Origin: Zygnema cylindricum
Taxonomy: Eukaryota > Streptophyta > Zygnematophyceae > Zygnematales > Zygnemataceae
Direction: 5' to 3'
NCBI GenBank assembly: GCA_037447655.1
Contig: JBBHKE010000028.1
Coordinates: 1 to 64,000 of the forward strand
DNA: 64,000 bases
Below, one piece after another: positions 19,846 through 48,613 of the stretch (within the stretch, counting starts at the first letter, position 1; each line of letters opens with the position of its first letter). The translations under genes were made by a program, and so were the position numbers. Below the pieces are notes generated by a model. That model was not told the origin of the DNA, searched no databases, and worked only from the letters and a program-made list of their open reading frames with translations.

Positions 19846-20152
19846 TGTTGATATTTGTGTATTTTCTAGGTATGAATTTATTCTATGTGTCTGTCAGATG
19901 GTATTCAAAAGTCATCCATACTTGTCGTAGTCACTAGAAGACAGAGATAGCCATGGCCGCCGCCATAGTCAGAAAGTAAGATGACCTAATTGTTAGCCTA
20001 AACCGGATTTGATCCTAAGTCTTTTAGTTGTGTGACGCATGGCATAGTTGGCCGCCTTATCCCTTAGGTCTTAATGAAAAACTATAATCGTATAGATTGA
20101 TAACTAATTAAAGTGTAACGCTACGGAGAAGAAGACATTTAACATAAATATT

Positions 20153-20226
20153 CCCAATGCCGGATTCGAACCTGCGTCTGTAATTGCAATATAGGCAAAC
20201 GACATATCCACTAAACCGTTAACGAA
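20153..20226 (-). other. tRNA-like segment in solo LTR S1
   Basis: On the minus strand: A-box-like TTTAGTGGATAT, an anticodon-like arm TTGC-CTATATT-GCAA with a 7-nt loop and T at position 33, and a perfect B-box GGTTCGAATCC. A-to-B spacing is that of a tRNA. D-stem and acceptor pairing are weak, so it is unlikely to be a working tRNA. It runs antisense to the LTR. Confidence 0.65.
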
Positions 20227-20763
20227 ACGATACATATATTTTCATCGAAACGTATATAAACGTGGTTGTAATCTACATAATCTATTCATGGATTACAAAA
20301 CGAAGCGACGTAGAGATTCAACGGTCAACACGGAATGGCAACCGTTGAATTTCAACGGTCAACATTTTTCGACGCACCGTCAGATCGAACGACCGACATT
20401 GATCGCCGAATTACGAACGGAAGGCACACGTGAGTGCCGGCATGCCGGAAAGGTTTTTGGCCGTACTTCGCGAATATGGAGGAAAATGACACGTGGCATC
20501 ATCCTATATGATGCCGGAGAAGAAAGGGACAGAATGGCGTTGACTAGTCTGCCACGTGGCGGACCGAGAGTGGTGCCGAATATTTCCGTACATAAAGTAC
20601 GGCGGCTACCGTACTTTGTATGTACACTGTTTAGCGTACGATGTTTTGATTGGTCTAGAGTAGTTATGAGTAGGTTCTTAGGACTTAGACATATTTTTTG
20701 AAAGTCCTCTCTCCCAAAGGCCATATGTAAAAATATGTTGTCTTTGAACAACCATAACTTAAT

Positions 20764-20906
20764 GCTCAGGGGAGCAAATTTAGTGATTTTTTTTGTTGCG
20801 GACTCAGGGGAAATTCAAATTGGGGAATGTTATCCAAAACTCATATTCTAAATTTGCATTCTGTGGTGGAACTGAACACACAAAAGTCTTATTTCACAAG
20901 GGTGAA
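20764..20906 (+). other. AGGG-loop hairpin module in S1
   Basis: GCTC-AGGG-GAGC at 20764-20775 is perfect. The middle GACTCAGGGGA hairpin is damaged on its 3' side. TTCAC-AAGG-GTGAA at 20893-20906 is perfect. Confidence 0.65.
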
Positions 20907-21034
20907 GCTTTAATGGGGTTCTAATTGTCAAGGGGTCAATCATTTGGGTTTATGTAAACTTGGAGTCGGCACAATCTAGATTAGCTTCTTTGGATCTACG
21001 AATTCTGTGTGGCAATGGAGCCCATAGAATTTCA

Positions 21035-22985
21035 ATTGCTTCTGTGTAGCACTGTATCTTTTGGGAGCTTTACGTACTCTGGTACTTATTGTGGGTGTGG
21101 TTCGTGTCGCCCCTCCCCAACTTGAAGCAAGAAGTCGGCGAATTCCTAAAGTGTTGAGGCGGCAATGTCATTTTGAGTTGTGCAAACGCGCATATTTATA
21201 TTCAGACGAACCTGTTTGAATTTTTGCCATAAGGGGTTGTTTTTTACGCATGCTACGATGACTTGAGCAACTGTGGCTTTTTGAATGACTAAGAGGCATT
21301 GATGAAAGTCGCCCGTTATGAAAAACACTACATTCACAAATGGTTTGTGATCTCTTCGTAAATTTTGCAATGTTCTATCCACTGCCTCAAGTAGATGTCG
21401 ACGAGCCATAGAAATTTCTTCCCAAACGATTAGAGAGGTTTGACGAAATAACTCTGCAAGATCTGATTGAGAAGAGATATTGCATGTAGATTGAGCATCT
21501 ATATCTAATGGAAGCTTAAATCTTGGGTGCGCTATCTTTTCTTATGTCAATAACAATGCTGCTACCTCACTTACATCAACAACGATAGCTTTTTTGTCGT
21601 TAGTATGCACTTTTGCCAAAATCTTCTCTATGAAAAATGATTTTTTCTGTTCCTCAAAGTCCATTAAGAAAAAAACAAGTTTCGACCTTTGAGGTACCTT
21701 GTACCGCATTTGTAACTACGTAATTATGCTTCTTTCTGTTCCATATTGAGTGTGGAAACCGAAGATAACACCCGTGTCATGTCTTGAAGATTGTAGGATT
21801 TTTCAACATCTATTAATGGATTTCGGTTTTGTATTTTACGAATGAGATGCTCTGGATAGTGTGCCAATTAGGGTAGAGCTGGATAGTCTATAATTGATTT
21901 AACGCCGCCACGTAGGAATTGTTTGGGTTCCAATAAAGTCTCGTATACTTGTTCTCGTTGAAGATTCTCATTATTACGGGACTTGTGAGCTTTGTAATTC
22001 GCGCGATTTCTATGGTGGATATCCTTAGACCTATCTTGGAAGTGTTTTGCCCATAAGGATTTTGCGGATTGAAAATTAGCACAGAGGAGGATTGTGGCAA
22101 ATAGGTGTCAAAGTTGTTTTGGCGTTTGGAATGTTACTGCTTCTTCTATGCATTTTTCCCACTCTACATGATCATCGCGAAGTCCCATTGCACTTGCAGC
22201 TTTGGCAAATGTGGCATATTCGACACCTTTGATAGTACACAAATCTTTGAATGACAAAGGTCCTTGTCTATAGCAAAGTAAAAAACGCATGTAATAACGT
22301 TCGGGTTCAACTGGTGAGCAAGTAACCATTCTCCCTATGACACTCTAATTAACACTTAATCAATTTTTCCAAAGTTAATTCGTCCAAATGTAATATTTAG
22401 GGATTTCGGGATACAAAAGGGATCGTGCGGTCTCATCATTGGCACATAAGTCGAAGTAACTTGTAAGTTTGGTAGATAAAGCACAATTCAAAACTGTTGA
22501 CACATTATCTGTTGAATGAAACACGACAATCTGTTGATGAGGTAAATACATTATCTGTTGAATGAAACACGACAATCTGTTGATGAGGTAAATACACGGG
22601 AAGCTTTTCTACAATTTGAGACTTAGCTTGTAAGGGGATCTCAAACAATCGCCAACATGATTCCAATGCGAACACATATCAAGCATCTAACTATTGTTGA
22701 ATTTCGTCTCTGGGCTCTTTGTTTCCCAATAACATTGCGACGCGATCATGCCTTTTGTACACATAGTTGTACATATATTTGGCCAATGTTATTGTTGAGC
22801 ACACTTTGACGTTAATATGACAATTGAGTTTGTGCGAAAACCAAAAATGTATGGTACCACAAATTGATTATCAAGTGTTTGACCATATTTTTTTAACACG
22901 ACTGTTATTTTGTCTCCTGTACATAGGATATCCCTTACCGTCCTCTTGAGTCTCCGCACAAAATACTTTTGGAAATCCTTTCTTG
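21035..22985 (-). pseudogene. Helitron replication/Pif1 helicase central remnant
   Basis: Minus-strand order from 22985 down: GKCKKGFPKVFCAETQ and GYPMYRRQ; LDNQFVVPY; a frameshift; CHINVKVCS and KYMYNYVYKRHDR; CWRLFEIPLQ; YFDLCANDETARSLLYPEIP; SPVEPERYYMRFLL; then the Pif1 part. The Walker A region is degraded (GTEK where GTGKT is expected, with a stop). Walker B reads LIVWEE, followed by LLEAVDRTLQNL, VVFFITGDFHQ and NMRVC. These are the expected Helitron blocks in the expected order. A 46-bp tandem duplication lies at 22502-22593. Confidence 0.8.
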
Positions 22986-23720: not shown

Positions 23721-23889
23721 GATAGGCTACATATGCTCTTGGAGACACACGTCTTCCATTTTCCATTGTCAAACCAAAATGCCACCCTAGTTCGCCATAT
23801 GGAAATAGAAGTGGGTATTGGAGAAGGTCATATAATGCATGAGACTCAAAGATGCGCATCATTCAATTGCCTCCTCTTACATTTAAAAC
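23721..23889 (-). pseudogene. Helitron Rep fragment left of copia-B
   Basis: The minus strand reads MRIFESHALYDLLQYPLLFP, YGELGWH and RRVSPRAYVAYRL, the conserved block before the Helitron catalytic region. It joins the fragment right of copia-B after removal of that element, with AAAAC on both sides. Confidence 0.75.
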
Positions 23890-24014
23890 TTCAATTCTGT
23901 GGTCTCCATTGACCCAGAGAATGAGCAGCCTATGTAAAACCTCTAGGATAATATTTGCCCCTTTTACTTTCCCGCTGAATAAGCGCCGACCAGGCACACA
24001 AATATTCTGACCAC

Positions 24015-24085
24015 TCTCACCCCTGTGAGGAGAAGACTCCTTTGAGTCAAACGCAAAAAGAATCACTGAATTTGCTCCCCTAAGC
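24015..24085 (-). other. Triple hairpin module, copia-B 3' LTR
   Basis: On the element strand: GCTTAGGGGAGC (one wobble pair), GACTC-AAAG-GAGTC and CTCAC-AGGG-GTGAG, in that order. Confidence 0.65.
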
Positions 24086-24563
24086 AGTAAGTTATGGTTG
24101 GTCAAAGATGACATTTATAGTTACAAGCTCTCTTAGAGAGAGGTACCTAACTTTCACTAAGTCCTGGTCTGCCTACTCACAACTGCCTACTACTAAACCC
24201 TAGTCCAATGGAAACACTATATAATACAAGAAGGTACATTAGGCGATATACTTATTGTACGGACATTGTACGACATGGCTTTCAAAGTGATGCCTGTCAA
24301 AACGGGAGCCATGGTTCCTCCTCCCATCTTCTCCGGTATCCAATAGTATGGTGCCACGTGGCGTCGCGTGACGGTATCCCCAAAAGCCGCCGAAAGTTAT
24401 TGCGGGTGGCGGCTGCAATTGTGGTCGTCCGATCATTTGTATTTATGCGGCTTCGATTCGCTTCCATGCATGAATTGACTAATGCGTGTTTTCGTTAGTC
24501 TTGTGCAAATTAGTCCGTTTAACAAATAGATAAATATGCGTGAAACGTAATACGTATATCGTT

Positions 24564-24638
24564 TCGCTAGTGCCTTAATGGATAAGGCTAAGGTCTAAAT
24601 AGTATTCCGTAGACCCCGGTTCAAATCCGGCTAGAGGC
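24564..24638 (+). other. tRNA-like segment, copia-B 3' LTR (antisense to the element)
   Basis: D-arm-like CCTT-AATGGAT-AAGG, an extended middle stem GGTCTA..TAGACC, T-arm CCGG-TTCAAAT-CCGG with B-box GGTTCAAATCC, and acceptor-like pairing CGCTAG with CTAGAGG. The middle arm lacks a normal 7-nt anticodon loop. Confidence 0.7.
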
Positions 24639-24801
24639 AGTATTTTGCTACAAATAGTAAAATACGTTCTATTTCATTCTCCCTCCTAAATGACGCGGCA
24701 GCCATTGCGTGCCTTTGGTTCTCTCTTTCTCTCTCTTTACATTCTAACTAAACTATAAAAGTGAACTGTTAATTACCTCTTTTCAACACTCCCCTTAATT
24801 C

Positions 24802-29063: not shown

Positions 29064-29067
29064 AACC
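29055..29067 (-). other. PBS of copia-B, complementary to initiator tRNA-Met anticodon arm
   Basis: GGTTATGGGCCCACC directly follows the 5' LTR. It is the reverse complement of the GGTGGGCCCATAACC anticodon arm of plant initiator tRNA. The gag ATG is inside it. Confidence 0.85.
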
Positions 29068-29190
29068 TGAAATTCTGTGGTCTCCTTTGACCCAAAGAAT
29101 GAGCTACCTATGTAAAGCCTCTAGGATAATAATTGCCCCTTCTACTTTCCCGCTGAATAAACGTCGCCCATGCACACAAATATTCTGACC

Positions 29191-29263
29191 GCTCTCACCC
29201 CTGTGAGGACAAGACTCCCTTGAGTCAAACGCAAAAGGAATCAATGAATTTGCTCCCCTGAGC
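29191..29263 (-). other. Triple hairpin module, copia-B 5' LTR
   Basis: On the element strand: GCTC-AGGG-GAGC (29252-29263), GACTC-AAGG-GAGTC (29213-29226), CTCAC-AGGG-GTGAG (29193-29206). All three stems are perfect. Confidence 0.75.
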
Positions 29264-29743
29264 AGTAAGTTATGGTTGGTCAAAGATGACCTTCATAGTT
29301 ACAAGCTCTCTTAGAGAGAGGTACCTAAATTTCACTAAGTCTTGGTCTGCCTACTTACGACTGCCTACTACTAAACCCTATTCCAATAGAAACACTATAT
29401 AGTACAAAAAGGTACATTTGGCGATGTACTTATTGTACGGCTATTGTACGACATGACTTTCAAAGTGACGCTTGTCAAAACGGGAGCCATGGTTCCTCCT
29501 CCTATCTTCTCCGGTATCCAATAGTATGGTGCCACGTGGCGTCGCGTGACGGTATCCCCAAAGGCCGCCGAAAGTTTATTGCGGGTGGCGGATGCAATTG
29601 TAGCCGTCTGATCATTTGCATTTATGCGGCTTCGATTCGTTTCCATGCATGAATTGAATAATGCGTGTTTTCGTTAGTCTTCGGCAAATTAGCCCGTTTA
29701 CCAAATAGATAAATATGCGTGAAACGTAATACCTATATCGTTT

Positions 29744-29818
29744 TGCTAGTGCCGTAATGGATACGGTTAAGGTCTAAATAGCATTCCGTAGACCCCGGTT
29801 CAAATCCGGCTAGAGGCA
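29744..29818 (+). other. tRNA-like segment, copia-B 5' LTR (antisense to the element)
   Basis: Same design as the left copy, but the D stem is CCGT..ACGG instead of CCTT..AAGG, a compensated pair change. B-box GGTTCAAATCC and the CCGG/CCGG T-stem are unchanged. Confidence 0.7.
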
Positions 29819-29967
29819 GTATTTTGCTACAAATAGTAAAATACCTTCTATTTCATTCTCCCTCCTAAATGACGCGGCAGCCATTGCGTGCCTTTGGTTC
29901 TCTCTTTCTCTCTCTTTACATTCTAACTAAACTATAAAAGTGAACTATTAATTACCTCTTTTCAACA

Positions 29968-31700: not shown

Positions 31701-32175
31701 GTCCACGCATAAATATGCTCAATTTTTGTCTTTTTATTCATACTGGCATGTCTCATGCTATATTTTATTAAGCATTTATTTGCCACGTGAACAAAAGGTA
31801 CAAGGATAATGTGTACGTCAAAAAAATCTAATTATGTTTTTATTCATCTTAACTCACTTTCGTTAGATTTTTCCAACTCAAACCCATCATAAAAACTTTC
31901 AATGGAAGAGTAATTTGGCATGCATCTATCGCACATAAATATTTTACGACATTTTCATGAAACTATTGTAGAAACTAATGGTTTTATTAGTATTTTCTAG
32001 GTCTGAAAAGAAATATAGAAGTCGAGGCAGTCTATCTCTAACTTCTCTCTCCAACTCTCAAACTTGTCGCAGTCACTGAGAAATTGGAGAGGAAGCTAGA
32101 GCCATGGCTACCTTGGCTATCCTGAGGTTTACGGGAATTTTATGTTAGGGTTTATTTATTTAATTAAAAGGTATG

Positions 32176-32256
32176 TGCCGGCGGCAGGATTTGATCCATA
32201 TACCTACCGGCCGGCAGATAGGAAATAGCCGGTAGCCTTAGCCGTTAGGTCTAGGA
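32176..32256 (-). other. tRNA-like segment, copia-A 5' LTR
   Basis: Minus strand: A-box-like CCTAACGGCTAAGG, a strong GC stem CTACCGGC..GCCGGTAG in the anticodon-arm position, and B-box-like GGATCAAATCC. The middle arm is longer than in a standard tRNA. Confidence 0.6.
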
Positions 32257-32820
32257 GTAGTATTACGTACTACATAGTTTGATATTTATTTAAATGGTTA
32301 TGCGCGCGATAAACCATTTAACTGCAATGAATTACGGGATACATAGATCCAGTAAAATGTAAATGTACGACTTACAGTACGGACACAAATCAGTACCGCG
32401 CATTTGTTTCGTAAATGAAACAAATACCGCGCATGTATTTATTACGGCTAAGATTAAAGCAGACTTTAATCGGACGGACGAGATTAGCGCCGAGATCGCG
32501 GAGGAAGATTTCGGCGGTTTGTGGCCATCGCCACATCGGATGACACGTGGCGAAATTCCGTTGGATTGTGGAATCTCCGGAGATTATGGCACCGAATCCG
32601 GATTTGACATGTGTCGACATTTTGGCCATGTCGTACAATGTTCATACATAAAGTACACCGGCAGATGTACTTTTGCGTAAGGAACTCAATTCTGATTGGT
32701 TCCGTACATCAGTAGATAGAGTTTGTGAGAGAGATAGGACTTAGAAAAATTAGAAGATAGGACCCTCTCTCCCAGAGAGCTTCTGTACAAAAGGTCAACT
32801 TTGACCCTCCATAACTTACT

Positions 32821-32891
32821 GCTCAGGGGAGCAAATTCAGAGATTCTTTTTGCTATCGACTCAGGGGAGTCTTGCCTTCACAGGGGTGAAG
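32821..32891 (+). other. Triple AGGG-loop hairpin module, copia-A 5' LTR
   Basis: GCTC-AGGG-GAGC (32821-32832), GACTC-AGGG-GAGTC (32858-32871) and CTTCAC-AGGG-GTGAAG (32876-32891), all perfect. They lie 125-200 bp upstream of the PBS, so they would be in the 5' leader of the genomic RNA if transcription starts upstream. Confidence 0.8.
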
Positions 32892-33016
32892 TTGGTCAGT
32901 GTTTTTGTCTGCCGGGGTGGCAGTTATTTTTGCTTAAACACAAAGGGGTCAGGATTATCCTAGAGGCTTCTTGGAAGCTGTCCACTCTGAGGACTTATGG
33001 AGGTCTCAGAGTTACA

Positions 33017-33029
33017 GGTTATGGGCCCA
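33017..33029 (+). other. PBS of copia-A overlapping the gag start codon
   Basis: GGTTATGGGCCCACC starts immediately after the LTR. It matches the anticodon-arm priming known for Drosophila copia (half-tRNA initiator Met). The ATG at 33021-33023 lies opposite the CAU anticodon. Confidence 0.88.
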
Positions 33030-34016
33030 CCCTCTAGGGTACCAATCTTTAATGGAACTGGCTTCATATACTGGGAAAGTATGATGATAGGAGCTCTATG
33101 CGAAAAAAGGTTTTGGGGGATAGTGAGTGGACGATTGGGGCGTCCATCAAGTCTTGGAATTCCTCCAGGGTTTGGAGGAAGCAGATTCACTAGGAAAGAG
33201 GATTCACCTTCAACGGAGGAAACAAAGGAAGGAGAGGTGGTGGACAAAGGAAAGGAGAAGGAGGCGACCACACCAATAGCAACTGGTTTAGCATTCATGT
33301 CACCTATTCCGAGGAACGAGGAGAATGATACTGAAACCTGGGACTTCAACAATATGGCGGCAAAGCACTTCATCCTACGCCATCTCACTGAAGGACTTGC
33401 ATGTCCTCATTTGCAGGTAGAAAGGGCATCCGATCTTTGGATGGCTCTTATAGAGATGTACCGAAGTGGTACGATTCAGCAACAACAGTTGGCTGATCAG
33501 AAAGTTAAGGAGTATGTATACAAAGGGGGAAATATGTTGGATTTTTGCAATGAGCTAGCTACACTCTTCATGGAGCTACAGAGTGCGGGAAAAGATTTTA
33601 GTGAAAAAGAAAAGGTTAACTGTTTACTGATGAAGTTACCTGATGAGTTCGTGAACATAGTTTACCGTGTGCAGGACTTGCCTGACTCAAGGTGGATATG
33701 GAACTCAGTGGTAGGGATGATTCTCGTTCAAGAGAATACAATTGAGATCCGAAGGGGAGGAAAGAGTGGCAAAGCCTTGGCAACAGCGACTGATTGGAGG
33801 AACAGGGATTCCCGAAAACCGGTCGGAAACTATGGGGGTAGGGAGCAGAAAAAACAGGCCGATGAGTTCGAACCAAGGGCTCCCAAAGGACTATGTCATT
33901 TTTGTAAGAAACCGGGGCACTATATGGCAGAGTGCACTAAGCTAACCGAGCTTCGGTTAAAGGAGGGGCAGACCGGTGGTACCCCGAGAGGAAAGAAAAA
34001 GGCCCTTGTCACATAG
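33021..34016 (+). CDS. gag: copia-A Gag
   Basis: Capsid/nucleocapsid part of the retrotransposon, 331 codons plus stop, starting MGPPSRVPIFNG within the PBS. An upstream in-frame ATG at 32997 lies inside the LTR; 33021 is preferred because B and D start at the same site. It contains the copia gag helical region (VKEYVYKGGNMLDFCNELA, FVNIVYRVQDLPDS) and a zinc knuckle CHFCKKPGHYMAEC near 33894-33935 that would bind RNA. It ends at an in-frame TAG. Homologous positions read CAA in copia-B and TGT in copia-D, so the stop looks like a CAG-to-TAG change. Confidence 0.92.
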   Translation: MGPPSRVPIFNGTGFIYWESMMIGALCEKRFWGIVSGRLGRPSSLGIPPGFGGSRFTRKEDSPSTEETKEGEVVDKGKEKEATTPIATGLAFMSPIPRNEENDTETWDFNNMAAKHFILRHLTEGLACPHLQVERASDLWMALIEMYRSGTIQQQQLADQKVKEYVYKGGNMLDFCNELATLFMELQSAGKDFSEKEKVNCLLMKLPDEFVNIVYRVQDLPDSRWIWNSVVGMILVQENTIEIRRGGKSGKALATATDWRNRDSRKPVGNYGGREQKKQADEFEPRAPKGLCHFCKKPGHYMAECTKLTELRLKEGQTGGTPRGKKKALVT

Positions 34017-35732
34017 GTACTTGAGGCTGAATCCGAGGACGAGGACGATGAGCTCCTTTTGGATGAGGAGTTGGAGGCGAAAAATGAGGTCGAAATTCCA
34101 CGAAGGCAGAAATGTGCTTACGGTGGATTGAAAGGTGAAGCAGGCTGGATTGTAGATTCAGGTGCCTCCATGCACATGTGTAAGGATAGACACCTGTTCA
34201 CTAAGATAAGAAAGATTCCCACCGTAGAGATAGAGTACGGGGATGGGAGGATAGTCACCACTACTCTTGTAGGATCGGTAGATCTAAAAGTGTTAGTAGA
34301 AGGAAAGACATCCATATTAACATTCTCCGATGTATTGTTTATTCCGGAGCTGAACAAAAATCTTATCTCTACATCAGTATTAGATGATAAGGGTTTTTTT
34401 ACTAGCACTAGGGAAGGAGTCTTTACTGCTAGTTTTGAGGATGATGTCTATTTCATTGCTGAGAAAGGTAGCCATGGGATGTTTAGGCTGATCTTAAGTA
34501 ATGAAAAGAAGAAACTTTATTATGCTGGTGTTCATGATATTATGATGTGGCATAAGAGGCTTGGGCATGTGAATCTAGATAAGTTAAGAGAGATGAAAAA
34601 GATGGGAGTGGTGGAAGGGATTCAGTTCAGTGAGAGTGATGATATAAGTGATTGTAGTGGATGTGCTCAAGGTAAAGCACACAGATTACCCTTTCCTAAG
34701 TCAGCCACCTATAAGGGAGAAAAAATTCTAGATCTAGTACACACGGATATTTGGGGACCGGCTAAAGTGCCCTCACCGGGGGGGAAGAGATTTATGATGA
34801 CTATAACTGATGATTGGTCTCGGTATTCCCGGGTATATTTTTTGAAAAACAAGTCCGAAGCTGAGGATTGTTTTAGACAATATAAAGCATGGAGCGAAAA
34901 ACTCCATGAAACTCCAATCAAGAGAGTAAGGAGTGACAATGGTGGAGAGTATACTTCTAACCAGTTTGAGGATTTTCTGAGGGAAGATGGGGTTCAACAC
35001 CAAAAGACAGTTCCAGAAAATCCTGAACAGAATGGGGTAGCTGAGAGGTTAAATAGAACACTAAGTGATAGTGCTAGAAGTATGTTGTCAGATAAAAGGA
35101 TAGGGAAAAGGTTTTGGGCAGAAGCAATGAACTGTGCTAATTACCTCAAGAATAGAGTTCTTACTTCAGCTATAAAAGATCAAACACCTTATGAGAGATG
35201 GACAGGTCGGAAACCAGACATATCACACTTAAAGGTTTTCGGCAGTCAAGTGTTCAGTCTAGATACTGATCGGTCCAATTGGAAGCTAGATCCTAAAGGA
35301 AAACCAGGATACTTATTAGGATATGATGAAGATGTTAAAGGATATAGAGTTTATGATCTAAAAAGGGAAGATATAATCTTAGTAAAGCATCTAGTAGTTA
35401 TGGATGAAGGAAAGTCTGTAGATCCCTTCAAATATACGAAGTCAGTAAAAATCAGATTTGAGTCAGAAAATTCCGATAACTTTGAGCTTCCTAACTATCC
35501 AGGTTTTAGAGAAGATGACATTCTTGCAGGAACAAATCAGACTAAAAAGGACTCGGCTGTGGAAACTCCAATGACAACTCTACTCGAAGCGGAAGACGTG
35601 GTGGAAATTGATTCGGAATCAAGGGATAGGGGAGAAGCCGAGTTTGTTCGAAAGAATCCACGAGAACCATCTATTCCGGCCTCAGATTTTGAGGGGGGGA
35701 GGAGAAGTAGCAAAAGACTGCAAGAAAAATAG
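34017..35732 (+). CDS. pol: copia-A protease and integrase
   Basis: Continues in the same frame as Gag after the TAG at 34014-34016. An acidic linker precedes the aspartic protease motif WIVDSGASMHMC (34146-34181). Then come the pre-integrase zinc finger (WHKRLGHVN to CSGCAQGKAHRLPF, about 34548-34695) and an integrase core with HTDIWGP, TDDWSRYSRVYF, RSDNGGEYTS and NGVAERLNRTL. These hold the acidic triad that inserts cDNA into chromosomes. A GKPGYLLGYDEDVKGYRVYD segment follows. It ends at a second TAG (35730-35732), where B reads CAG-type Gln. Confidence 0.9.
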   Translation, partial: VLEAESEDEDDELLLDEELEAKNEVEIPRRQKCAYGGLKGEAGWIVDSGASMHMCKDRHLFTKIRKIPTVEIEYGDGRIVTTTLVGSVDLKVLVEGKTSILTFSDVLFIPELNKNLISTSVLDDKGFFTSTREGVFTASFEDDVYFIAEKGSHGMFRLILSNEKKKLYYAGVHDIMMWHKRLGHVNLDKLREMKKMGVVEGIQFSESDDISDCSGCAQGKAHRLPFPKSATYKGEKILDLVHTDIWGPAKVPSPGGKRFMMTITDDWSRYSRVYFLKNKSEAEDCFRQYKAWSEKLHETPIKRVRSDNGGEYTSNQFEDFLREDGVQHQKTVPENPEQNGVAERLNRTLSDSARSMLSDKRIGKRFWAEAMNCANYLKNRVLTSAIKDQTPYERWTGRKPDISHLKVFGSQVFSLDTDRSNWKLDPKGKPGYLLGYDEDVKGYRVYDLKREDIILVKHLVVMDEGKSVDPFKYTKSVKIRFESENSDNFELPNYPGFREDDILAGTNQTKKDSAVETPMTTLLEAEDVVEIDSESRDRGEAEFVRKNPREPSIPASDFEGGRRSSKRLQEK

Positions 35733-37354
35733 GTTAATAACAAGGTAACTAAACTATCTCATCAAGATGAACCTCAAACTTATGGAGAGGCGATGACTTG
35801 TCCAGAAAGAAACCGGTGGAAGACAGCCATCAATGAGGAGATGGCTTCAATCATGGCAGCCGATACTTGGGAGCTGGTGGACTGTCCACCTAACCGAAAA
35901 CCAATCGGTTGTAAGTGGGTTTCAAACTAAAACTGAACCCAGATAACACAATCGAGCGCTACAAGGCCAGATTAGTGGCAAAGGGATTTACACAAAAGGA
36001 AGGAATTGACTACGAGGAAACCTTTGCCCCGGTGGTCAGATTTCCCTCCGTCCGCATACTTCTCAGTTTAGCAGCGGCGGAAGACATGGAAGTGCACCAG
36101 ATGGACATCAAAACAGCCTTTTTGCATGGAGAATTGGAAGAGGAGATCTTCATGCGACAACCCGAAGGGTTTGTGGAAGAAGGAGAGGAGAGTAAGGTAT
36201 GCCGGCTGATTAAATCTCTTTATGGTTTGAAACAGGCGCCTCGACAGTGGAATAAGAAGCTTGATGAGTTTCTTACCGGTCTAGGATATATTCGGATCAG
36301 CTCAGATCACTCAATCTATGTTTTCGAAGATGAGGAAGGTTTTATATTTATTGCAATTTATGTTGATGATTTGCTTGTTTTAAGTAAATCAATGGAAAAA
36401 ATTAATAAACCGAAAACCGATCTTAAGGGGAGATTTGAAATGAAGGATATGGGGGAAGCAAAATATATTTTGGGAATTCAAGTAGAGAGAGACCGAAAAA
36501 GGAAAATTATAAGATTGACTCAAAAGGAAGCAATAGGGAACATGCTTGAAAAATTTCAAATGGATAAAGCTAATAGTTGTACAACTCCGATGGAGTTGAA
36601 GAAGGGAAGTGAGGGGAGTGAGGAAGAAGGAGTCATAGTCTTAGACGAGGAATTTTCTCCTGATGAACAGAAGTTCATGCAGACTATTCCTTACAGGCAA
36701 GTAGTGGGAAGTCTAATCTATTTTATGAATTGTACCCGGCCGGATTTAGCTGCAGCTGTAGGAGTGCTGAGTAGAAGTCTAAATGCTCCCACTAAGAAGG
36801 ATTGGGAGGCAGCTAAGAGAGTCCTTAGATACTTGGTAGGAACTAGAGATCTATGGTTGCATTTGGGTGGGGAGAATACTGACATCACTACTTGGAGTGA
36901 TGCCAGTTATGGTGATGCTCCGATGAGGAGATGTACTTCTGGATATGTATTATATATGGGTGATGGGGCTTGCTGTTGGAGTAGCAAACAGCAAAAGGTT
37001 ATTGCTCAGTCCACCATGGAGGCTGAGTATATGGCCTCTTGCACTGCTGTAAAAGAATTGATGTGGGTCAAGTCTTTGCTTGGTGAGCTTGGTCACCTTA
37101 AGAGTGGTGTGCAGAAAATATTTTGTGATAATCAGGCAGCAATCGCTATTTCTGCCAATCCTAAACACCATTTTAAAGCCAAACACATGGACATCAGACT
37201 CAGCTTTGTTAGAGAGAAAGTAGAAAACAAAATAATCAGTTTAGAGTACAGACCAGATAGTGAGATGGTAGCAGATATGATGACCAAACCTGTGCCTTCC
37301 CCTAAGCTAATTTTTTGCAGGGAGAAGTGTGGTCTGAAATTAAAGATTGACTAG
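35733..37354 (+). CDS. pol: copia-A reverse transcriptase and RNase H
   Basis: The coding frame from the TAG to about 35917 reads VNNKVTKLSHQDEPQTY to KPIGCKWV. A 1-nt deletion within GTGGGTTTCAAAC then shifts the frame, and an open frame of about 480 codons runs to the stop at 37352-37354. RT motifs: [42 protein letters not shown] and YVDD (36359-36370). RNase H motifs: WSDASYGDAPMRRCTSGY, QSTMEAEYMASC, FCDNQAAIAIS and HMDIRLSFVRE. All catalytic motifs look intact. It would copy element RNA into DNA from the tRNA fragment primer. Confidence 0.9.
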
Positions 37355-37367
37355 AAAATAAGGGGAG
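37355..37367 (+). other. Polypurine tract of copia-A
   Basis: AAAATAAGGGGAG lies directly before the TG of the 3' LTR and primes plus-strand DNA synthesis. B and C have AATTAAGGGGAG and AAAATAAGGGGAA; E has TTATGGGGAG. Confidence 0.85.
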
Positions 37368-37576
37368 TGTAGAAACTAATGGTTTTATTAGTATTTTCTA
37401 GGTTTGAAAAGAAATATAGAAGTCGAGGCAGTCTATCTCTAACTTCTCTCTCCAACTCTCAAACTTGTCGCAGTCACTGAGAAATTGGAGAGGAAGCTAG
37501 AGCCATGGCTACCTTGGCTATCCTGAGGTTTACGGGAATTTTATGTTAGGGTTTATTTATTTAATTAAAAGGTATG

Positions 37577-37657
37577 TGCCGGCGGCAGGATTTGATCCAT
37601 ATACCTACCGGCCGGCAGATAGGAAATAGCCGGTAGCCTTAGCCGTTAGGTCTAGGA
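37577..37657 (-). other. tRNA-like segment, copia-A 3' LTR
   Basis: Identical in design to the 5' LTR copy: A-box-like CCTAACGGCTAAGG, GC-rich middle stem and B-box-like GGATCAAATCC on the minus strand. Confidence 0.6.
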
Positions 37658-38221
37658 GTAGTATTACGTACTACATAGTTTGATATTTATTTAAATGGTT
37701 ATGCGCGCGATAAACCATTTAACTGCAATGAATTACGGGATACATAGACCCAGTAAAATGTAAATGTACGACTTACAGTACGGACACAAATCAGTACCGC
37801 GCATTTGTTTCGTAAATGAAACAAATACCGCGCATGTATTTATTACGGCTAAGATTAAAGCCGACTTTAATCGGACGGACGAGATTAGCGCCGAGATCGC
37901 GGAGGAAGATTTCGGCGGTTTGTGGCCATCGCCACATCGGATGACACGTGGCGAAATTCCGTTGGATTGTGGAATCTCCGGAGATTATGGCACCGAATCC
38001 GGATTTGACATGTGTCGACATTTTGGCCATGTCGTACAATGTCCGTACATAAAGTACACCGGCAGATGTACTTTTGCGTACGGAACTCAATTCTGATTGG
38101 TTCCGTACATCAGTAAATAGAGTTTGTGAGAGAGATAGGACTTAGAAAAATTAGAAGATAGGACCCTCTCTCCCAGAGAGCTTCTGTACAAAAGGTCAAC
38201 TTTGACCCTCCATAACTTACT

Positions 38222-38292
38222 GCTCAGGGGAGCAAATTCAGAGATTCTTTTTGCTATCGACTCAAGGGAGTCTTGCCTTCACAGGGGTGAAG
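38222..38292 (+). other. Triple hairpin module, copia-A 3' LTR
   Basis: The same three stems as in the 5' LTR. The middle loop reads AAGG instead of AGGG, and no stem base is changed. Confidence 0.8.
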
Positions 38293-38671
38293 TTGGTCAG
38301 AGTTTTTGTCTGCGAGGGTGGCAGTTATTTTTGCTTAAACACAAAGGGGTCAGGATTATCCTAGAGGCTTCTTGGAAGCTGTCCACTCTGAGGACTTATG
38401 GAGGTCTCAGAGTTACAACTATTTTACTTGAAGATCTCAATCATACCAACATATCCAAAGACTTCACAGGATAACCAATAATCTCATTTCATAAAGTTTT
38501 TTAACAGTACCTCTACTTTTTACATGTAGCAATACCACAGTGTGATTTGTTTAGGTTGCAATTTTGTGTACTCTATTGGACTTCAGAATTCACGAAGCCT
38601 CAAGGTAGCTTTTAACTAACCCACTTTCAACCCCAACCACTGCTGCCTAAGCAAACAACTTGACAATCTGA

Positions 38672-38706: not shown

Positions 38707-39332
38707 ATAGCAAAAGAAGTCACTGAAAAAGGCCAACGAGCCAATAAGTTATGAGGTGGTATCTTGATGTCACTGAAAAAGGCCAACCAGCCGATAAGTT
38801 ATGAGGTGGCAAAGATACCAGTTTATACAAACTCTCAAAGAGAGAGGTGACGGTCTACTGAAAAATTGCTAAGTCCAAATCCCCCCTCACAACACCTATC
38901 TAGTGCAGTACGATCCAATCAAAAAACTGTACAGTACCAAAAGGTACTATGGTCGATAATCTTTCTGTACGGCTTGTGTAGGACAAGGCCATTAAGTGGA
39001 CGCGTGTCCACATTTTACTCGTCCTTATGTTCTTTGGAATTCTACCGACCAAATGTTATCTCTCCACGTGGCGTCAGGTCATGCCACGTCAAAAACCGCC
39101 AAAGTGACCATTCCGAGATCTCGACGGTGTTATGTGTTGTTGGATCAAAAATCGAGATTTAATGTTAGCCGTCGAAACAAATGTCTGATTCATTTGTTTC
39201 GTGCGGGGTCATGTTCGCGCTGTATATCAACTAGTTCTATGTCCCCTCATTTGTAATTCCGTTAATCGGATGAAAGATGATAACACAGTTTAAGTATTTA
39301 TCATATCCTATGTAATTTAACGAACTCCTACG

Positions 39333-39402
39333 ACAGACCGGTTAGAGTTGACTGCTACGCCTCGCTCTGCCAGTCGGAGGTTAGAGTCTTGCAAGACTCA
39401 AC
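39333..39402 (+). other. tRNA-like segment, copia-C LTR (antisense to the element)
   Basis: CCGGTTAGAGTTGACTGC resembles an A-box arm, and GGTTAGAGTC about 27 bases later resembles a B-box, followed by a GAGTCTTGCAAGACTC palindrome. It occupies the same LTR position as in the other families but is the most diverged. Confidence 0.45.
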
Positions 39403-39612
39403 CTTTTATTGAGAGTGACTATTTTCGCTCTTTAGTCTTGCCTATAGAGTTGAGGCAGCCATGGCTCCACTTATCTCTCTCCCCTTCAATGACTACAACA
39501 AGTATGGGCGATTGAGGAAAGAGGTGGAAGCAGACTACCTGCGCTTTTCCTTTCTTTTTCTACCAAGCTATTCAGACCTAGAAAATGCTTCATAAATCTA
39601 GTGATTTCAACA

Positions 39613-42631: not shown

Positions 42632-42706
42632 ACGTAAGTCCATTTTTGAACCTGGGTCTGTGGACCACTATGTAGTCCTTAGTCTTAACTACTAAGGCGT
42701 TATCGA
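42632..42706 (-). other. tRNA-like segment, copia-D LTR
   Basis: Minus strand: CCTT-AGTAGTT-AAGA D-arm, extended middle arm GGAC..GTCC, then GGTTCAAAAATGG, a mutated B-box. Homologous to the copia-B segment. Confidence 0.55.
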
Positions 42707-43179: not shown

Positions 43180-43247
43180 GCTCAGGGGAGCAAATTCAGT
43201 GATTCTTTTTGCGTTTGACTCGAGGGAGTCTTGTCTTCACTGGTGGT
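43180..43247 (+). other. Hairpin module, copia-D LTR
   Basis: GCTC-AGGG-GAGC (43180-43191) and GACTC-GAGG-GAGTC (43217-43230) are intact. The third (CTTCACTGGTGGTAG) has lost pairing. Confidence 0.65.
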
Positions 43248-43367
43248 AGGAATATTTGTGTTCCTAGGCGGCACTTATTCAGTGGGAAAGTGGAAGGGGC
43301 AAATATTATCTTAGAGACTTTACATAGGCTGCTCATTCTGTGGGCTAATGAAGACCATATAATTTCA

Positions 43368-43380
43368 GGTTATGGGCCCA
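43368..43380 (+). other. PBS of copia-D overlapping gag ATG
   Basis: GGTTATGGGCCCACC directly after the LTR, the same 15-nt initiator tRNA complement as A and B. Gag ATG is at 43372-43374. Confidence 0.85.
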
Positions 43381-46316
43381 CCCACTAAGGTGCCCATATT
43401 TGATGGATCAAACTTTTTGTATTGGAAAATGATGATGGAGGGAGAAATATTTGAGAATCATCTATGTGGCATAGTGTCTAGACAAATTCGATGCCCACCT
43501 CCACCTGGGTTTGGAGGGACACGTTTTTCTGGCACCTCCGCCTCTACAGTTGGTAGAACAGCTGCCACCATCACCGAGGATGATGATGAGGAAGGCGAGG
43601 AGATTGTCACGGAAGGAGAAAAGGGAGGAGTTGCAACTCAAGTGACACTATTGCCGAAGGTGATACCGGCAGCAGCACCACCAAAAACGACGACAAGGGT
43701 TCAGACCAAAAGATTGGAGTATGAAAAGTGGAACTACATAGACAAGGTTTCTATGCTCTTAATTTTTGAAAGTAGAGCAAAAGGCATTGCCATTTTCCTT
43801 ATGCATGTCAATTCTTAATCTCAGATTTGGATATCACTAGTTAACAAATATAAGAGTGGATCATTGCAAGAGCAACAGTTGGTAGAAAATAAGATTGCAG
43901 CTTATACTTATAAGGGAGGATGCATGAATAATTATTGCAATGATTTAGGAGAATTATTTGGAGAGCTAGAGAGTGCAGGTAACTCATGGTCTGAGAGACA
44001 AAGAGTGAACACATTAATTATGAAACCGCCCGAGGAGTATGAGAATTTCATAAACCCTTTGCAGGACATGGGAGATAGCAATTGGAATTGGGATGACACA
44101 GTGGGAATAATTTTAGTGAAAGAAAGCACGATAAAGCTTAGGAGAGGGAGTCCAAGTGTTCAAGGATTGTCTGAGCTGATTGGCAGAAGCATGATGAGGA
44201 GAGAGGGGATGATCCCTATCGAAACTTTGGTGGAAGAGGACAAGGAGGTGGCACATTTGATAGACAGGGGAGAGGACCTTCTCGAGGAGGATTATGTCAC
44301 TTCTGCAAGAAATCGGGACACTATATGGCAGATTGTGTCAAATTTGTAGATCTTTGACTGAGAGATGTGCAAGGAACCTCAAAAGATGGAGGAAAGAAAA
44401 AGGCTTTCCTGACTTGTGTTCATAATGAGGAAGTGGAAGCAAAAACTAAACTGAAAGTGGAGCTTTAGAGCTTCTTCTTAATCCGAAAAACACCGAAAAG
44501 CATATCGACAATCCACGGAGACAAAAGAGTGCTTTCAGTGGTAAGAGGGATCCACCCGAGGATGGGTGGATCATAGACTCAAGGGCTTCAATGCATCTGT
44601 GCAAAGATAAGAGGTGGTTCACCAACTGAGAAAGATCCCAGCAATTGAGATAGTGTACGGAGAAGGTAGAGTAAAAACTACAAGTCTTGTTAGAATTGTT
44701 GACTTGAAGGTTCTAGTTGATGGAAAGTCCTCAATTGTAACACTCTCAGACGTTCTTTGTATTCCACATCTTAGCAAGAACCTAGTCTCAACAGTTGTCC
44801 CAGATGAAATGAAGTTTGAAACAGGAACTATAAAAGGAATCTTCACAGGAAGCTTTGATAATGAGGTTTATTTCATAGCTGAGAAAGAGAGTCAAAGAAT
44901 GTTCAGAATTGTTCTTTGCAATGAAAAGAGTGTTCTCTACTCGTGTGCAATTGAGATGATTATTTGGCACAAAAGGTTGGGATATGTGGATCTAGATCGA
45001 TTAAAAGAAAATGGAATAGTGAAGGGTATTACTTTTGAGGATGATGAGACCTTTGATGATTGTAGTGGATGTGCCCAAGGGAGGGTTCATAGACTTCCAT
45101 TTCCAAAGGCAACCACACTTAAAAGAGAGAAAGTATTGGATCTAATTTACACTGATGTTTGGAGACCTGCTAGGTATGCTTCATATGGGGGGAAGAGATG
45201 GATGTTAACCATCACAGATGATTAGTCTAGATACACAAAGGTATACTTTCTCAGACATAAGTAAAAAGGGATTAAGATGTTTCAAAGATATAAAGTATAG
45301 AGTGAAAAACTACATGAAACCTCAATAAAAGAGATGCGCGTTACAATGGTTAAATCAGCAAAATAGAGAATATCTTAAAGAAGAAAAAAGTTCATCATGA
45401 GAAAATTGTTACCTATAATCCGGAACAGAATGGAGTAGCAGAAAAAGTGAATAGAAATTTAGGAGATATAACCAACAGTAAGCTAACTAATTAGAGGATA
45501 GGGTTGCAGTTTAGGGGGGAGTCTATGAGCTATGCTAATTTCATCAAAAATAGAGTCATAACTTCAGCAAATAAGGAAGAACTCCGTATGAGAGGTTGAC
45601 AGGAAGAAAACTTAATTTGTCTAGTTTGAGAGTGTTTAGAAGTCAAGTCTACAGTTTGGATTCCGATAAGACTAAATGGAAGTTAGAGGGTAGAGGGAAA
45701 CTAGGATATCTTGTAAGATATGATGAGAGCACAAAAGGATATGACTTGAAAAAAAGAGATATAACTTTGGTAAAACACATAGTGGTGATGAATGAAGTGA
45801 AGTCTATTGATCCATTCAAATAGAATAAAGAAGTTAAAATCAAATTTGAAACGGATCAGTTTTCTGACTTTGAATCTGAAAATGAAGAGAAGGAAGATGG
45901 AGAAACAAAAATATTCATATCAACCAAAAGAGAAAAAGGAAAAGAGAACATCTGAGGCAACGCCACAATACAAAGTGGAAATCTATGAGGAACTTGATGA
46001 GACATTGGAATTGGAAGATAGGGGAGCTGATATTCTTTCTAAAAAAAAACCAATGATGCCTTCCATACCGGCGTCCGATTTTGAAAGGGGAAGAAGAAGT
46101 AGTAAACGACTTCAAAAAAGACAGGTAAATAACCAACTCACAAAGATGTCTCACCCAGATGAACCTCATACATACTTAGAGGCCATAAATACCCTAAAAT
46201 GTAGCCGGTGGATCACTGCTATACATGAAAAAATGGCCTCCATCATGGAAGCCAATACATGGGAGTTGGTAGATTGTCCACCGGACCGAAAACCGATCGG
46301 ATGTAAGTGGGTTTTT
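43372..46316 (+). pseudogene. copia-D gag-pol remnant
   Basis: MGPPTKVPIFDGSNFLYW starts gag. A stop at about 43816 and later frameshifts break it. The gag core YTYKGGCMNNYCNDLGELF is at 43.9 kb and a shifted zinc knuckle near 44.29 kb. Protease WIIDSRASMHLC (DSG changed to DSR) is near 44.57 kb. Pre-integrase WHKRLGYVDLDRL and CSGCAQG are near 45.0 kb, and a decayed integrase with many stops at 45.2-45.6 kb. It ends in the linker to RT. Confidence 0.85.
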
Positions 46317-46935
46317 ACCTAGCTAGGAATTCTCCATTTCGGAATTCTAACAACTAAGCTACTTTAAACTTCCGCACCAGACAGACACTTTCTGCCTTCT
46401 CATACTTTCCACCTAGTTTGACTCACAAGCTAGAATTTTATTAGAACTAAGAAGATCTTGTAGCTCTAACAGCTCACAAAATTTCACATCAAATGCATAC
46501 AAAATAAGAAAGTTATACTCAATGAAAACTACATTTTGATGTAAAAATTGTTGTACAATCGCTACTGAACTTTGCCAAGTCCTAGATGTGTTATTTATAC
46601 CTCATGGCATTAAGTATTGAACACCAGATAAACACTATATATCTAAGTGACGTACGGTCGTACATTTTCTAAGTAAAAAGCCAAGTTTTAGCCCGTATCA
46701 CTAATTTTGTCACGTACACTATAAAGTAATGTACAAAACAACAATTCCGAAATTTGTAGCGACAAAAATATCTACGTCTTTTTTACGTAGGACTTTTAAT
46801 CAAATGATCCTAAAAAAGTCCTTGAAACTCTGAGACCTCCATAAGTCCTCAGAGTGGACAGCTTCCAAGAAGCCTCTAAGATAATCCTGACCCCTTTGTG
46901 TTTAAGCAAAAATAACTGCCACCCTGGCAGACAAA

Positions 46936-47673
46936 TGTTGTTCTGAGACAACTGCTGGTACTGAAGATGAAGATGATGCAGCAGTAGTCATCGTAGAACA
47001 AATCAAGAGAGGAAGCTTCCACAAATTCCGATGGTTGAAAAGCAACTTTGACAGACTATAACTTTCAGAAAAACGCTCTAAACGTCCTGAAAATTTTTCA
47101 CAATGTAGATAACATACAAAGAAACACACACATAAAATTTCAATCAATTCCGCTCACAAATCTGTGAGATATGTAGAAAAGAAATTACATAAAACTGAGT
47201 GTACAGTTTTCATATCATTTGTTCCTAAAAATCAAATTCACTAAGTCCTACTTTTATACACCAAAACTACACTAAGATGTACGGAGGCATTCCAGCCGTA
47301 CATCTAACATTCTATCACAAATATTTACACCGAAGTTCAGACAACGTAAAGTGATAATGATCTAGTCACGCCTCGTCACTATTTGTTGGCGGCGGCTGTC
47401 AGCGATCCGATTAGAGGATTTGGCACCGTAGAATTGACTTCACGAAGTCCAGTGGTCCTGCCGAATTTCCGTACGTCCACGGAGGACATACTCACGCATT
47501 CTCCCAAGTGACGACACGTGTTCCAAGTGTGAATGAACCGTGACTTCCCAACTTCACTGTCACACCAATTTCGGTAAGTACTGAACCGAACTCAACCAAA
47601 AATAGCTTAAGTCTTGAAAAACTCTCTCTCACAGTTGAGGCATAAAGAGGACTAAAGATTTCTAAAAACAACA
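46936..47673 (-). mobile_element. Solo LTR S3 nested in S2
   Basis: 738 bp with TGTTG..CAACA ends and a perfect ACAAA duplication (46931-46935 and 47674-47678). It contains CACGTG at 47515-47520. Orientation is inferred from the CTCAACTGTGAGAGAG-like start shared with the other LTRs. No tRNA-like segment was seen. Confidence 0.8.
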
Positions 47674-47698
47674 ACAAATACTCTAACCACCTGCACCC

Positions 47699-47761
47699 TT
47701 GTGAAGGCAAGACTCCCCTGAGTCGATAGCAAAAAGTATCTCTGAATTTGCTCCCCTGAGC
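47699..47761 (-). other. Triple hairpin module, solo LTR S2
   Basis: Element strand: GCTC-AGGG-GAGC (47750-47761), GACTC-AGGG-GAGTC (47711-47724) and a CTTCACAAGGGTG third hairpin with a shortened stem. Confidence 0.65.
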
Positions 47762-48325
47762 AGTAAGTTATGGAGGGTCAAAGTTGACCTTTTGTACAGA
47801 AGCTCTCTGGGAGAGAGGGTCCTATCTTCTAATTTTTCTAAGTCCTATCTCTCTCACAGACTCTATCTACTGATGTACGGAACCAATCAGAATTGAGTTC
47901 CGTACGCAAAAGTACAGCTGCCGGTGTACTTTATGTACGGACATTGTACGACATGACCTAAATGTCCACACGTGGAATATCCGGATTCGCTCCTTTAATC
48001 CTCGGAGATGCCGCGCTCCAATGTAACATCGCCACGTGTCATCCGATGTGGCGATGCCCACAAACCGCCGAATTCTTCTTCCGCAATCTCGGCGCTGATT
48101 CCGGCCGTCCGATTAAACTCGCATTTGATCGTAGCCGTAATAAATACATACGCGGTATTTGTTTCGCTTACGAAATCAATGCGCGGTATTGATTTCTTAT
48201 CCGCACCGCAATTCGTACTTTTACACTACCATATCTATGTATCCCGTTAACTGTTATAGTTAAATGATTTATCCCACGTGTACATGTTTAAATCATTATC
48301 GTACTATATACTATGTAAGACTACT

Positions 48326-48406
48326 TCTAGACTTAACGGCTAAGGCTACCGGCTATCTACTCTCTGTCGGCCGGCAGGTACCAGGATCAAATCCTGTCGC
48401 CGGCAC
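48326..48406 (+). other. tRNA-like segment, solo LTR S2 (antisense to the LTR)
   Basis: CTTAACGGCTAAGG A-box arm, GC-rich middle stem, and T-arm CAGG-ATCAAAT-CCTG with a perfect 4-bp stem that is incomplete in copia-A. Confidence 0.6.
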
Positions 48407-48613
48407 ATACCTTTTAGTAATTAATCCCCTAACCAATATAAATTTCCCGTAAACCTCAGGATAGCCTAGGTAGCCATGGCTCTAGCTTCCTCTCCAATTT
48501 CTCAGTGACTGCGACAAGTTTGAGAGTTGGAGAGAGAAGTTAGAGGTAGACTGCCTCGGCTTCTTTATTTCTATTCAGACCAAGAAAATACTTAAAAACC
48601 ATTAATTTCTACA

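Follow-up and report, generated by a model that had tools for sequence, protein, structure and literature searches.

The LTRs of a copia lineage in Zygnema cylindricum carry a tRNA-like segment near the LTR 5' end, antisense to the element. The segment was present in subfamilies A, S2, B, C, D, and S1 within the window, the whole 64,000-nucleotide stretch of contig JBBHKE010000028.1 that was analyzed. It had been noticed from the letters of the window alone, and the observation proved to be real and wider than that original prediction could see. The LTRs of this large autonomous lineage on balance probably hold a degenerate antisense tRNA gene, kept as a short putative Pol III (type 2) unit. 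Its promoter boxes and stop signal can still be recognized in thousands of copies, which suggests that the elements employ the tRNA-making machinery in an unfamiliar way.

Module anatomy and strand

Element A occupies positions 31967-38417 on the plus strand. It has two LTRs of 1050 bp each (31967-33016 and 37368-38417), the TSD ACTAT, and a primer site at 33017-33029. Pfam matches in the internal region were to copia gag (32991-34013), integrase (34017-35729), and RVT_2 (35915-37351). With a copia-type gag, integrase, and RVT_2 between LTRs and a 5-bp TSD, element A was classed as Ty1/copia. The primer site at the LTR/internal junction of elements A, B, and C is GGTTATGGGCCCA, which we take to be of the half-tRNA-Met type, matching the tRNA-Met anticodon arm. 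No relatives of the copia RT were found among viral contigs.

The modules of element A lie on the minus strand, A5 at 32166-32260 (A box 32242-32252, B box 32187-32197) and A3 at 37567-37661 (A box 37643-37653, B box 37588-37598), both with TTTT at the 3' end. Element B is on the minus strand and its modules are on the plus strand, B3 at 24560-24646 (A box 24571-24581, B box 24618-24628, TTTT 24643-24646) and B5 at 29739-29825 (A box 29750-29760, B box 29797-29807, TTTT 29822-29825). S2 is an A-type LTR on the minus strand with a plus-strand module at 48321-48415 (A box 48329-48339, B box 48384-48394, TTTT at the 3' end). The solo LTR S1 spans 19846-21034 on the plus strand, with the TSD ATTGC at 19841-19845 and 21035-21039; its 3' end was matched and lies beyond the span first described. 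S1 contains two minus-strand modules, S1a at 20146-20229 (A box 20208-20218) and S1b at 19988-20083 (A box 20061-20071, B box 20005-20015), neither with a T-run within 60 nt. The perfect B box reported for S1 was confirmed at 20162-20172 on the minus strand in S1a, and the 7-nt anticodon-type loop beside it was recognized by eye. C5 (42624-42710, minus strand) has the decayed B box GGTTCAAAAAT at 42642-42652 and retains its TTTT. D3 (39321-39407, plus strand) is decayed, with the B-box-like GGTTAGAGTCT at 39379-39389 and TTTT at 39404-39407.

Eight LTRs were checked (A5, A3, B3, B5, C5, D3, S1, and S2) and the segments aligned at a homologous place in all seven that were aligned, A3 (99% like A5) being left out. 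Each LTR had been said to hold one segment at the same position and always antisense. The antisense strand and the homologous alignment stood, and the single copy and fixed position did not, as S1 has two modules and the offset of the B box from the LTR start differs (161 in B, 221 in A, and 317 in S1a).

Boxes were scored against the consensus TRGYNNARNGG plus GGTTCRANTCC (maximum 18) and compared with shuffles. The best antisense score was 17 for B3 and B5 (p ≤ 1/301) and for S1a (p = 1/301), and 15 for A5 and A3 (p =.013) and S2 (p =.010). C5 and D3 both scored 13 antisense and were not significant alone (p =.70 and.73, respectively), the best match of C5 lying off the homologous site. The best sense-strand scores of the window LTRs were at background (lowest p =.16), and the best score of D3 was higher sense (14) than antisense. 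For A, S2, B, and S1a, box scores exceeded those of shuffles, and did so only when the antisense strand was scored.

A run of four T residues (T4) is a Pol III stop signal. A T4 run starts 14-17 nt past the B box in six of eight window modules, the run not being required in that scan; the comparison level in the window is TTTT within 30 nt at 11.7% of antisense LTR positions. T4 begins 12-32 nt past the B box in 10 of the 20 host tRNA genes fetched. When boxes were combined with an obligatory T4 run, p was.0015 for A5 and S2 and.0005 for B3 and B5; S1 (p =.80), C5, and D3 were not significant. T4 in a set range was demanded in this combined test and in the S1-type, element E, and D-type scans described below, so that in these tests its presence is built in and its clustering alone carries information. 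It was not demanded in the A-type counts or in the opened pattern-site/A-type check.

Recurrence across the genome

The pattern GGATCAAATCC N12-20 TTTT gave 6140 matches genome-wide (352.8 Mb), a count in which a site whose T-run exceeds four enters repeatedly, compared to 18 for the reversed pattern. Twenty sites were opened, hand-picked for varied tails and not random, from about 100 listed (contigs C1-C46) of the 6140. All 20 were antisense within LTR sequence of this copia lineage, the best LTR match being on the opposite strand, and no free-standing SINE was found among them.

The S1-type, element E, D-type, and opened-site scans used a looser B-box consensus, GGWTCRANTCC, picked after the A-type boxes had been seen, and the window tests used the stricter GGTTCRANTCC. 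S1-type LTRs were fetched with a module-free query, and T4 was demanded within 10-24 nt. A score of at least 14 was reached antisense in 18/29, compared to 2/29 sense and a shuffle expectation of 1.55/29; LTR copies within a set are kin, so that these and similar counts are non-independent events, and 26 of the 30 rows of the S1-type set formed a single cluster at 72% identity. In the 22 LTRs with a score of at least 13, the T-runs cluster at 16-20 nt. A-type LTRs, in a set fetched without the module, had T4 at +17 in 20/20, an exact B box in 18/20, and the A box of S2 in 15/20. Several pairs of A-type LTR matches lay ~5.4 kb apart. D-type LTRs, also fetched without the module, scored at least 14 in 17/20 antisense compared to 0/20 sense; the 18 that gave a match had their T-run at +13 or +14. 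Because their A boxes match poorly (4-6 of 8, spacing 39-61), the D-type LTRs contribute B box and T-run only. In the related element E, the 436 nt searched close to the start of the LTR contained no module when the looser consensus was used and T4 was demanded.

Several copia subfamilies had been predicted to share an antisense tRNA-related module with Pol III promoter boxes, and the box scores and the genome-wide recurrence bear this out. The pattern named beforehand as a refutation, with segments unrelated from one subfamily to another, missing from most copies, or matching the boxes no better than shuffles, was not seen.

tRNA resemblance and alternative readings

The modules were compared with 20 host tRNAs, using shuffles that preserve base composition only. 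The best match of S1a was tRNA-Arg(CCT) and the best matches of B3 were tRNA-Gln and Arg (p ≤ 1/201 for both modules). S2 (p =.29) and S1b (p =.08) showed no likeness to the 20 tRNAs beyond shuffles, and D3 resembled them equally on both strands. Among S1-type LTRs the antisense strand of the module was nearer to host tRNAs than the sense strand in 24/29 (3 ties), the module region being placed by offsets from the S1-type scan. A functional tRNA gene was rejected, as ARAGORN found none in the window and Rfam tRNA matches stayed sub-threshold. B3 gave 16.6 bits with the D arm shifted and S1a gave no Rfam tRNA match. With its thresholds lowered, ARAGORN made 179-180 predictions in the window, an uninformative result that was set aside. 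Near-matches to the Rfam families snoR30 and SAM-SAH were sub-threshold and unrelated.

The proposed unit would consist of A and B boxes followed, at the spacing usual for tRNA genes, by a T4 terminator. TFIIIC would occupy the two boxes and TFIIIB would be positioned upstream, on the LTR-inward side. Pol III would yield an RNA of roughly 100 nt ending at the T-run ahead of the LTR edge. With this stop, antisense RNA would stay out of the flanking DNA and, where it starts in the 3' LTR, out of the coding region. The element would most likely gain an open, factor-bound island at the LTR's outer edge that insulates or assists its own Pol II promoter.

Another possibility is that TFIIIC/TFIIIB drawn to the boxes acts on the Pol II promoter as a boundary or enhancer and that Pol III makes little RNA or none. 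This is rather unlikely. It would suit boxes that recur though no common fold is kept, and assembled Pol III complexes influence neighboring Pol II transcription in yeast (PMC4228148). A site that is never transcribed needs no T4 at a narrow distance, yet one is seen in A-, S1-, and D-type LTRs. It is unlikely that the segment is a fossil without function, left by the insertion of a tRNA gene or SINE into an ancestral LTR and merely carried along. The decay in C5, D3, S1a, and S1b fits such an origin, as do the rates in B copies, whose boxes evolve no slower than the flanks or the LTR average. Among 30 B copies, retrieved with the module itself as query and including the window's own two, variation was 0.023 and 0.016 in the flanks, 0.021 in the A box, and 0.042 in the B box, and only the anticodon/variable part was faster (0.078). 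B-box divergence was 0.064 compared to an LTR average of 0.065 in the 11/29 B copies aligned, on one strand, the other 18 being dropped. The low variation of the B-copy flanks, on a par with the boxes, and the weak D-type A boxes weigh somewhat against the Pol III unit and in favor of a fossil. Between window subfamilies, however, the B box (0.72 conserved) and the A box (0.61) persist while the stretch between them drops to background identity (0.38, mean 0.35). A-type copies of 98-100% identity retain B box and T-run, and D-type relatives have a T-run and a better B box than the decayed window copy D3, which also argues against a fossil.

It is improbable that the conserved positions are sense-strand sites for Pol II transcription factors in the LTR promoter. 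By eye, GGATTTGATCC and the D-arm hairpin are near-palindromic and might bind such factors, and further conserved islands, such as CCATGGCT, are found close by. Counting against the Pol III unit, islands elsewhere in the LTR 5' half match the boxes in conservation. Sense-strand sites leave unexplained the antisense-only box order, the T-run spacing, and the better antisense match to tRNAs. A Pol III unit that serves as an integration target, in the way that yeast Ty1 is drawn to tRNA genes (PMC5911963), is very improbable. Two of the four insertions read as inside LTRs (L029 and L034) are at LTR positions 181 and 196, adjoining the module, but in the same rows four or five insertions were read as falling in internal regions, several LTR starts are mis-set, and the numbers are too small. 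An RNA-level tRNA mimic or decoy is scarcely credible. In B copies 17/21 cloverleaf pairs persist in 25-30 of 30, but 4/21 fail in at least 28 of 30. The fixed cloverleaf register pairs 58.8% of cells compared to 31-48% when slid, but in its fold controls 22-139 of 500 shuffles did as well. When every placement on either strand was scanned for a cloverleaf, the top eight, at B3, B5, and S1a, reached 31-32 of 40, which was not above the 30-32 peaks of 12 shuffled windows. RNAalifold yielded no consensus on the eight modules, and the cloverleaf is not retained across them. With no common fold and four failing pairs in B copies, the structural decoy first suggested was left unsupported.

Relation to known LTR promoters

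tRNA-derived SINEs keep the A and B boxes and the remainder of the tRNA is degenerate. The modules resemble them in this and differ in sitting inside LTRs, as at the 20 pattern sites opened. Elements A, B, and C resemble the Osser, Bryco, and Gymco-II copia lineages in their primer site, presumably of the half-tRNA-Met type. Such a site is given for those lineages in Neumann 2019, and the term tRNA-like is absent from the main text of that paper (PMC6317226).

Of the known systems Helenus (TRIMp3) comes closest, ahead of Cassandra (Kojima 2024, PMC10886601). Cassandra had been offered as the precedent, and it fits insofar as these TRIMs have the Pol III promoter of a small RNA gene in their LTRs (PMC10886601). 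They are non-autonomous and their source is 5S rRNA. No Rfam match at gathering scores was found in the window, ruling out 5S sequence and with it a 5S/Cassandra identity. Helenus is nearer, since its LTRs, as here, hold tRNA-like sequence that includes A and B boxes, the likeness being weak for C and D. The encoded tRNA of these TRIMs was mostly judged non-functional, the box is taken as the element's own promoter, and TSDs are 5 bp in fungal and plant elements; most fungal ones have anticodon-loop primer sites, and in fungi they are copia-linked (PMC10886601). Helenus elements are non-autonomous and 311-1263 bp long, whereas element A measures 6.45 kb and has coding blocks for gag, integrase, and RT. 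The words antisense and opposite are absent from the Helenus paper (PMC10886601), whose tRNA-like unit is presumably in the sense direction, unlike the antisense modules here.

In the literature covered, Pol III promoters in LTRs belong to small non-autonomous elements. Autonomous partners were argued to need Pol II, and it was considered unlikely that they have extended LTR sequence in common with such elements (PMC10886601). The copia LTRs described here number in the thousands, bear their tRNA-type unit backward, and belong to elements coding for gag, integrase, and RT, contrary to the expectation that autonomous partners would not carry Pol III promoters. More tentatively, the whole autonomous copia clade, with thousands of LTRs in one genome, may have kept one or two antisense self-terminating Pol III genes per LTR through its radiation as a part of the life cycle. 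Such a two-polymerase LTR would have Pol III factors holding the repeat open for Pol II and a terminator keeping antisense RNA off the coding region. These LTRs offer a natural system for studying the influence of Pol III factors on LTR chromatin, silencing, and integration. The modules can also mislead B-box searches. Perfect B-box sites numbered 198 genome-wide, and of eight opened none was a tRNA gene by ARAGORN and three were LTR modules, one of them S1a.

Copia elements and LTRs in the window

The window, which lies on one contig of a 352.8-Mb genome, contains nested copia elements. In element A (31967-38417, + strand), two 1050-bp LTRs with 99% identity flank coding blocks for copia gag, integrase and reverse transcriptase, and the TSD is ACTAT. 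The relatives, at 60-90% identity, are element B (LTRs at about 23886-24788 and 29064-29967, - strand), element C (from 42486, + strand), the truncated element D (- strand), the solo LTR S1 (19846-21034, TSD ATTGC) and the LTR S2, whose flanks GTCCT/GTCTT differ by a single-base mismatch. S2 contains an insert of ~740 bp (46936-47673), and the right part of this resembles sequence in LTR copy L039. The sequence GGTTATGGGCCCA is present at the LTR/internal junction in A, B and C and is a primer site of the half-tRNA-Met type. This type of site is reported for Osser, Bryco and part of Gymco-II (PMC6317226).

Antisense tRNA-like modules

Each element has a tRNA-like segment (the module) that runs antisense to it; counted from the start of the LTR, the B box lies at 161-317 nt. 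The A and B boxes were scored against a consensus (maximum 18), with dinucleotide shuffles as controls. Scores of 17/18 for B3, B5 (3' and 5' LTRs of B) and S1a, and of 15/18 for A and S2, all exceeded the shuffles. The box scores of C5 and D3 did not, and the sense strands of the LTRs were at background. When a TTTT run (T4, the Pol III stop) was also required 8-25 nt past the B box, whole-LTR shuffles gave p values of.0015 for A5 and S2 and.0005 for B3 and B5. This combined test failed to separate C5 (p.35), D3 (.15) and S1 (.80) from shuffles. On the scale of the tile scan A5, A3 and S2 scored 16, B3 and B5 17, C5 12, D3 13 and S1 11. Among 158 tile strands taken from the window outside the LTRs, one scored 15, six scored 14 and none reached 16. 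No module was seen in the 436 nt at the inferred LTR start of the related element E (48617-49052, - strand), which may mark a limit of capture or a loss.

Where it was not demanded, T4 started 14-17 nt past the B box in six of the eight modules (A5, S2, B3, B5, C5 and D3), and the chance of T4 within 30 nt is about 12%. No T4 was present within 60 nt of the B box in S1a or S1b. Among 20 host tRNA genes compared, for which a short flank was taken, 10 had T4 12-32 nt past the B box. A terminator at so narrow a distance suggests that the module is transcribed and that the transcript has to be ended.

The modules were also aligned to the 20 host tRNA genes, with 200 composition shuffles as control. 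The best alignments were with tRNA-Arg(CCT) for S1a and with tRNA-Gln and Arg for B3, and in both cases they exceeded all 200 shuffles. The p values for tRNA-likeness were.01 for A5,.015 for C5 and.04 for D3, which scored equally on both strands. Matches of S2 (p.29, strands equal) and S1b (p.08) to these tRNAs were not beyond shuffles. When every placement in the window was scored for pairs and invariant bases, the top eight cloverleaf placements were at B3, B5 and S1a. The margin was narrow (maxima of 31-32 vs 30-32 in shuffled windows) and no whole cloverleaf was retained across modules.

One segment per LTR had been noted at first. S1 (+ strand) has two, S1a and S1b, 157 nt apart, at 19988-20229 on the antisense (-) strand. 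Four of six B/C-like LTRs among 20 sites opened elsewhere in the genome (L113, L114, L119 and L122) had two boxes as well: an outer GGATCAAATCC box and, 154-165 nt further into the LTR, an inner box of the GGTTCAAAT type followed by T4 at +13. We infer that an ancestral module pair with differential loss is possible, in which A kept the outer module and B and C the inner.

Genome-wide recurrence and conservation

Four sets of LTRs were drawn from first-pass matches, which are not confirmed copies (3358 S1-type, 3005 A-type, 5189 D-type and 804 B candidates). The sets consist of related copies, so counts are not independent events. Forty candidates were scored in each. The S1-type query was the S1 LTR minus its module, and 29 other LTRs were fetched. 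Scores of at least 14 were found on the antisense strand in 18/29 and on the sense strand in 2/29 (expected 1.55). Scores of at least 13 were found in 22/29 (expected 7.3), at offsets of 231-279 with T4 at +16 to +20. Against host tRNAs the antisense module strand outscored the sense strand in 24 of the 29, with 3 ties, and the antisense module region averaged a higher tRNA score than the rest of the same LTRs.

The A-type candidates scored were 98-100% identical. All 20 module regions read had T4 at +17 and 18 had the exact B box; 15 had the A box of S2, and the A5 version was seen in no region. Of 20 D-type LTRs read, 17 scored at least 14 on the antisense strand and none on the sense strand. 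T4 was at +13 or +14 in all 18 LTRs with a match. The B box, scored without the T-run demand, had 9 or 10 of 10 matches in 17/20, and the A boxes were weak. As these relatives keep good B boxes, D3 is taken as a decayed member of a good-B-box family. The B candidates scored were 94-100% identical; among 30 read, including the window's two, 18 had the exact B box and all 30 had TTTT. The refuting outcome named beforehand, with segments unrelated between subfamilies, lacking in most copies or no better than shuffles, was not seen in these sets.

The pattern GGATCAAATCC N12-20 TTTT had 6140 genome matches vs 18 for the reversed pattern, T-runs over four nt being counted repeatedly. Twenty sites were opened, chosen for variety and not at random among about 100 listed of the 6140. 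The best LTR match was on the opposite strand in all 20, and in 18 the B box itself was covered by an LTR match.

Across the window subfamilies the B-box columns had a conservation of 0.72, which ranks them second within the 5' half of the LTR and is matched by 2.0% of 11-column windows. The A box (0.61) was equalled by 5.7% of such windows, and the A-to-B stretch was at background (0.38 vs mean 0.35). In a 35-LTR alignment the box cores were again among the top islands, and other islands ranked similarly. In B copies the anticodon/variable part changed most and the flanks were as quiet as the boxes; among 11 aligned B copies the B box was no slower than the LTR average. Conservation between subfamilies fits a promoter and does not fit a functional tRNA, and variation within families is neutral on this question.

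Among window subfamilies, conservation in the 5' half of the LTR was highest at a near-palindromic CCATGGCTGCC-like island (within 31967-32300 and homologues). The D-arm hairpin of B5 has a T-A pair changed to G-C (B D-arms at 24571-24588 and 29750-29767). L025 has a C-G pair changed to G-C in its D-arm; its contig also holds L038, at a distance of ~5.3 kb, in which only one of these two bases is changed. Such paired changes could arise from structural constraint or when a near-palindrome is repaired by template switching.

Proposed working, known relatives and other features

TFIIIC and TFIIIB would assemble on the module and Pol III would produce a short antisense RNA ending before the LTR edge. 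The likely gain would be an open, insulated LTR edge beside the putative Pol II promoter.

Kojima 2024 (PMC10886601) describes Helenus elements as TRIMs whose LTRs are tRNA-like, and remarks that a fair number of LTRs in Repbase show partial resemblance to a tRNA. All Helenus are non-autonomous there, with one plant family, in Selaginella; autonomous partners are argued to use Pol II and probably not to have long stretches of LTR in common with Helenus. The words "antisense" and "opposite" are absent from the main text. In contrast to Helenus, element A combines gag, integrase and reverse transcriptase with an antisense module. No autonomous copia family with an antisense module was found among the listed titles and abstract openings of open-licence papers on tRNA-like or tRNA-derived LTR sequences, Pol III and copia, which is not proof of absence.

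Elsewhere in the window, inverted repeats at 53743-54763 and 8376-10221 share sequence and are perhaps a fold-back element. A 31-bp unit is repeated in tandem at 62778-64000, to near the window end. Reading frames at 12633-14685 appear to resemble a multicopper oxidase.
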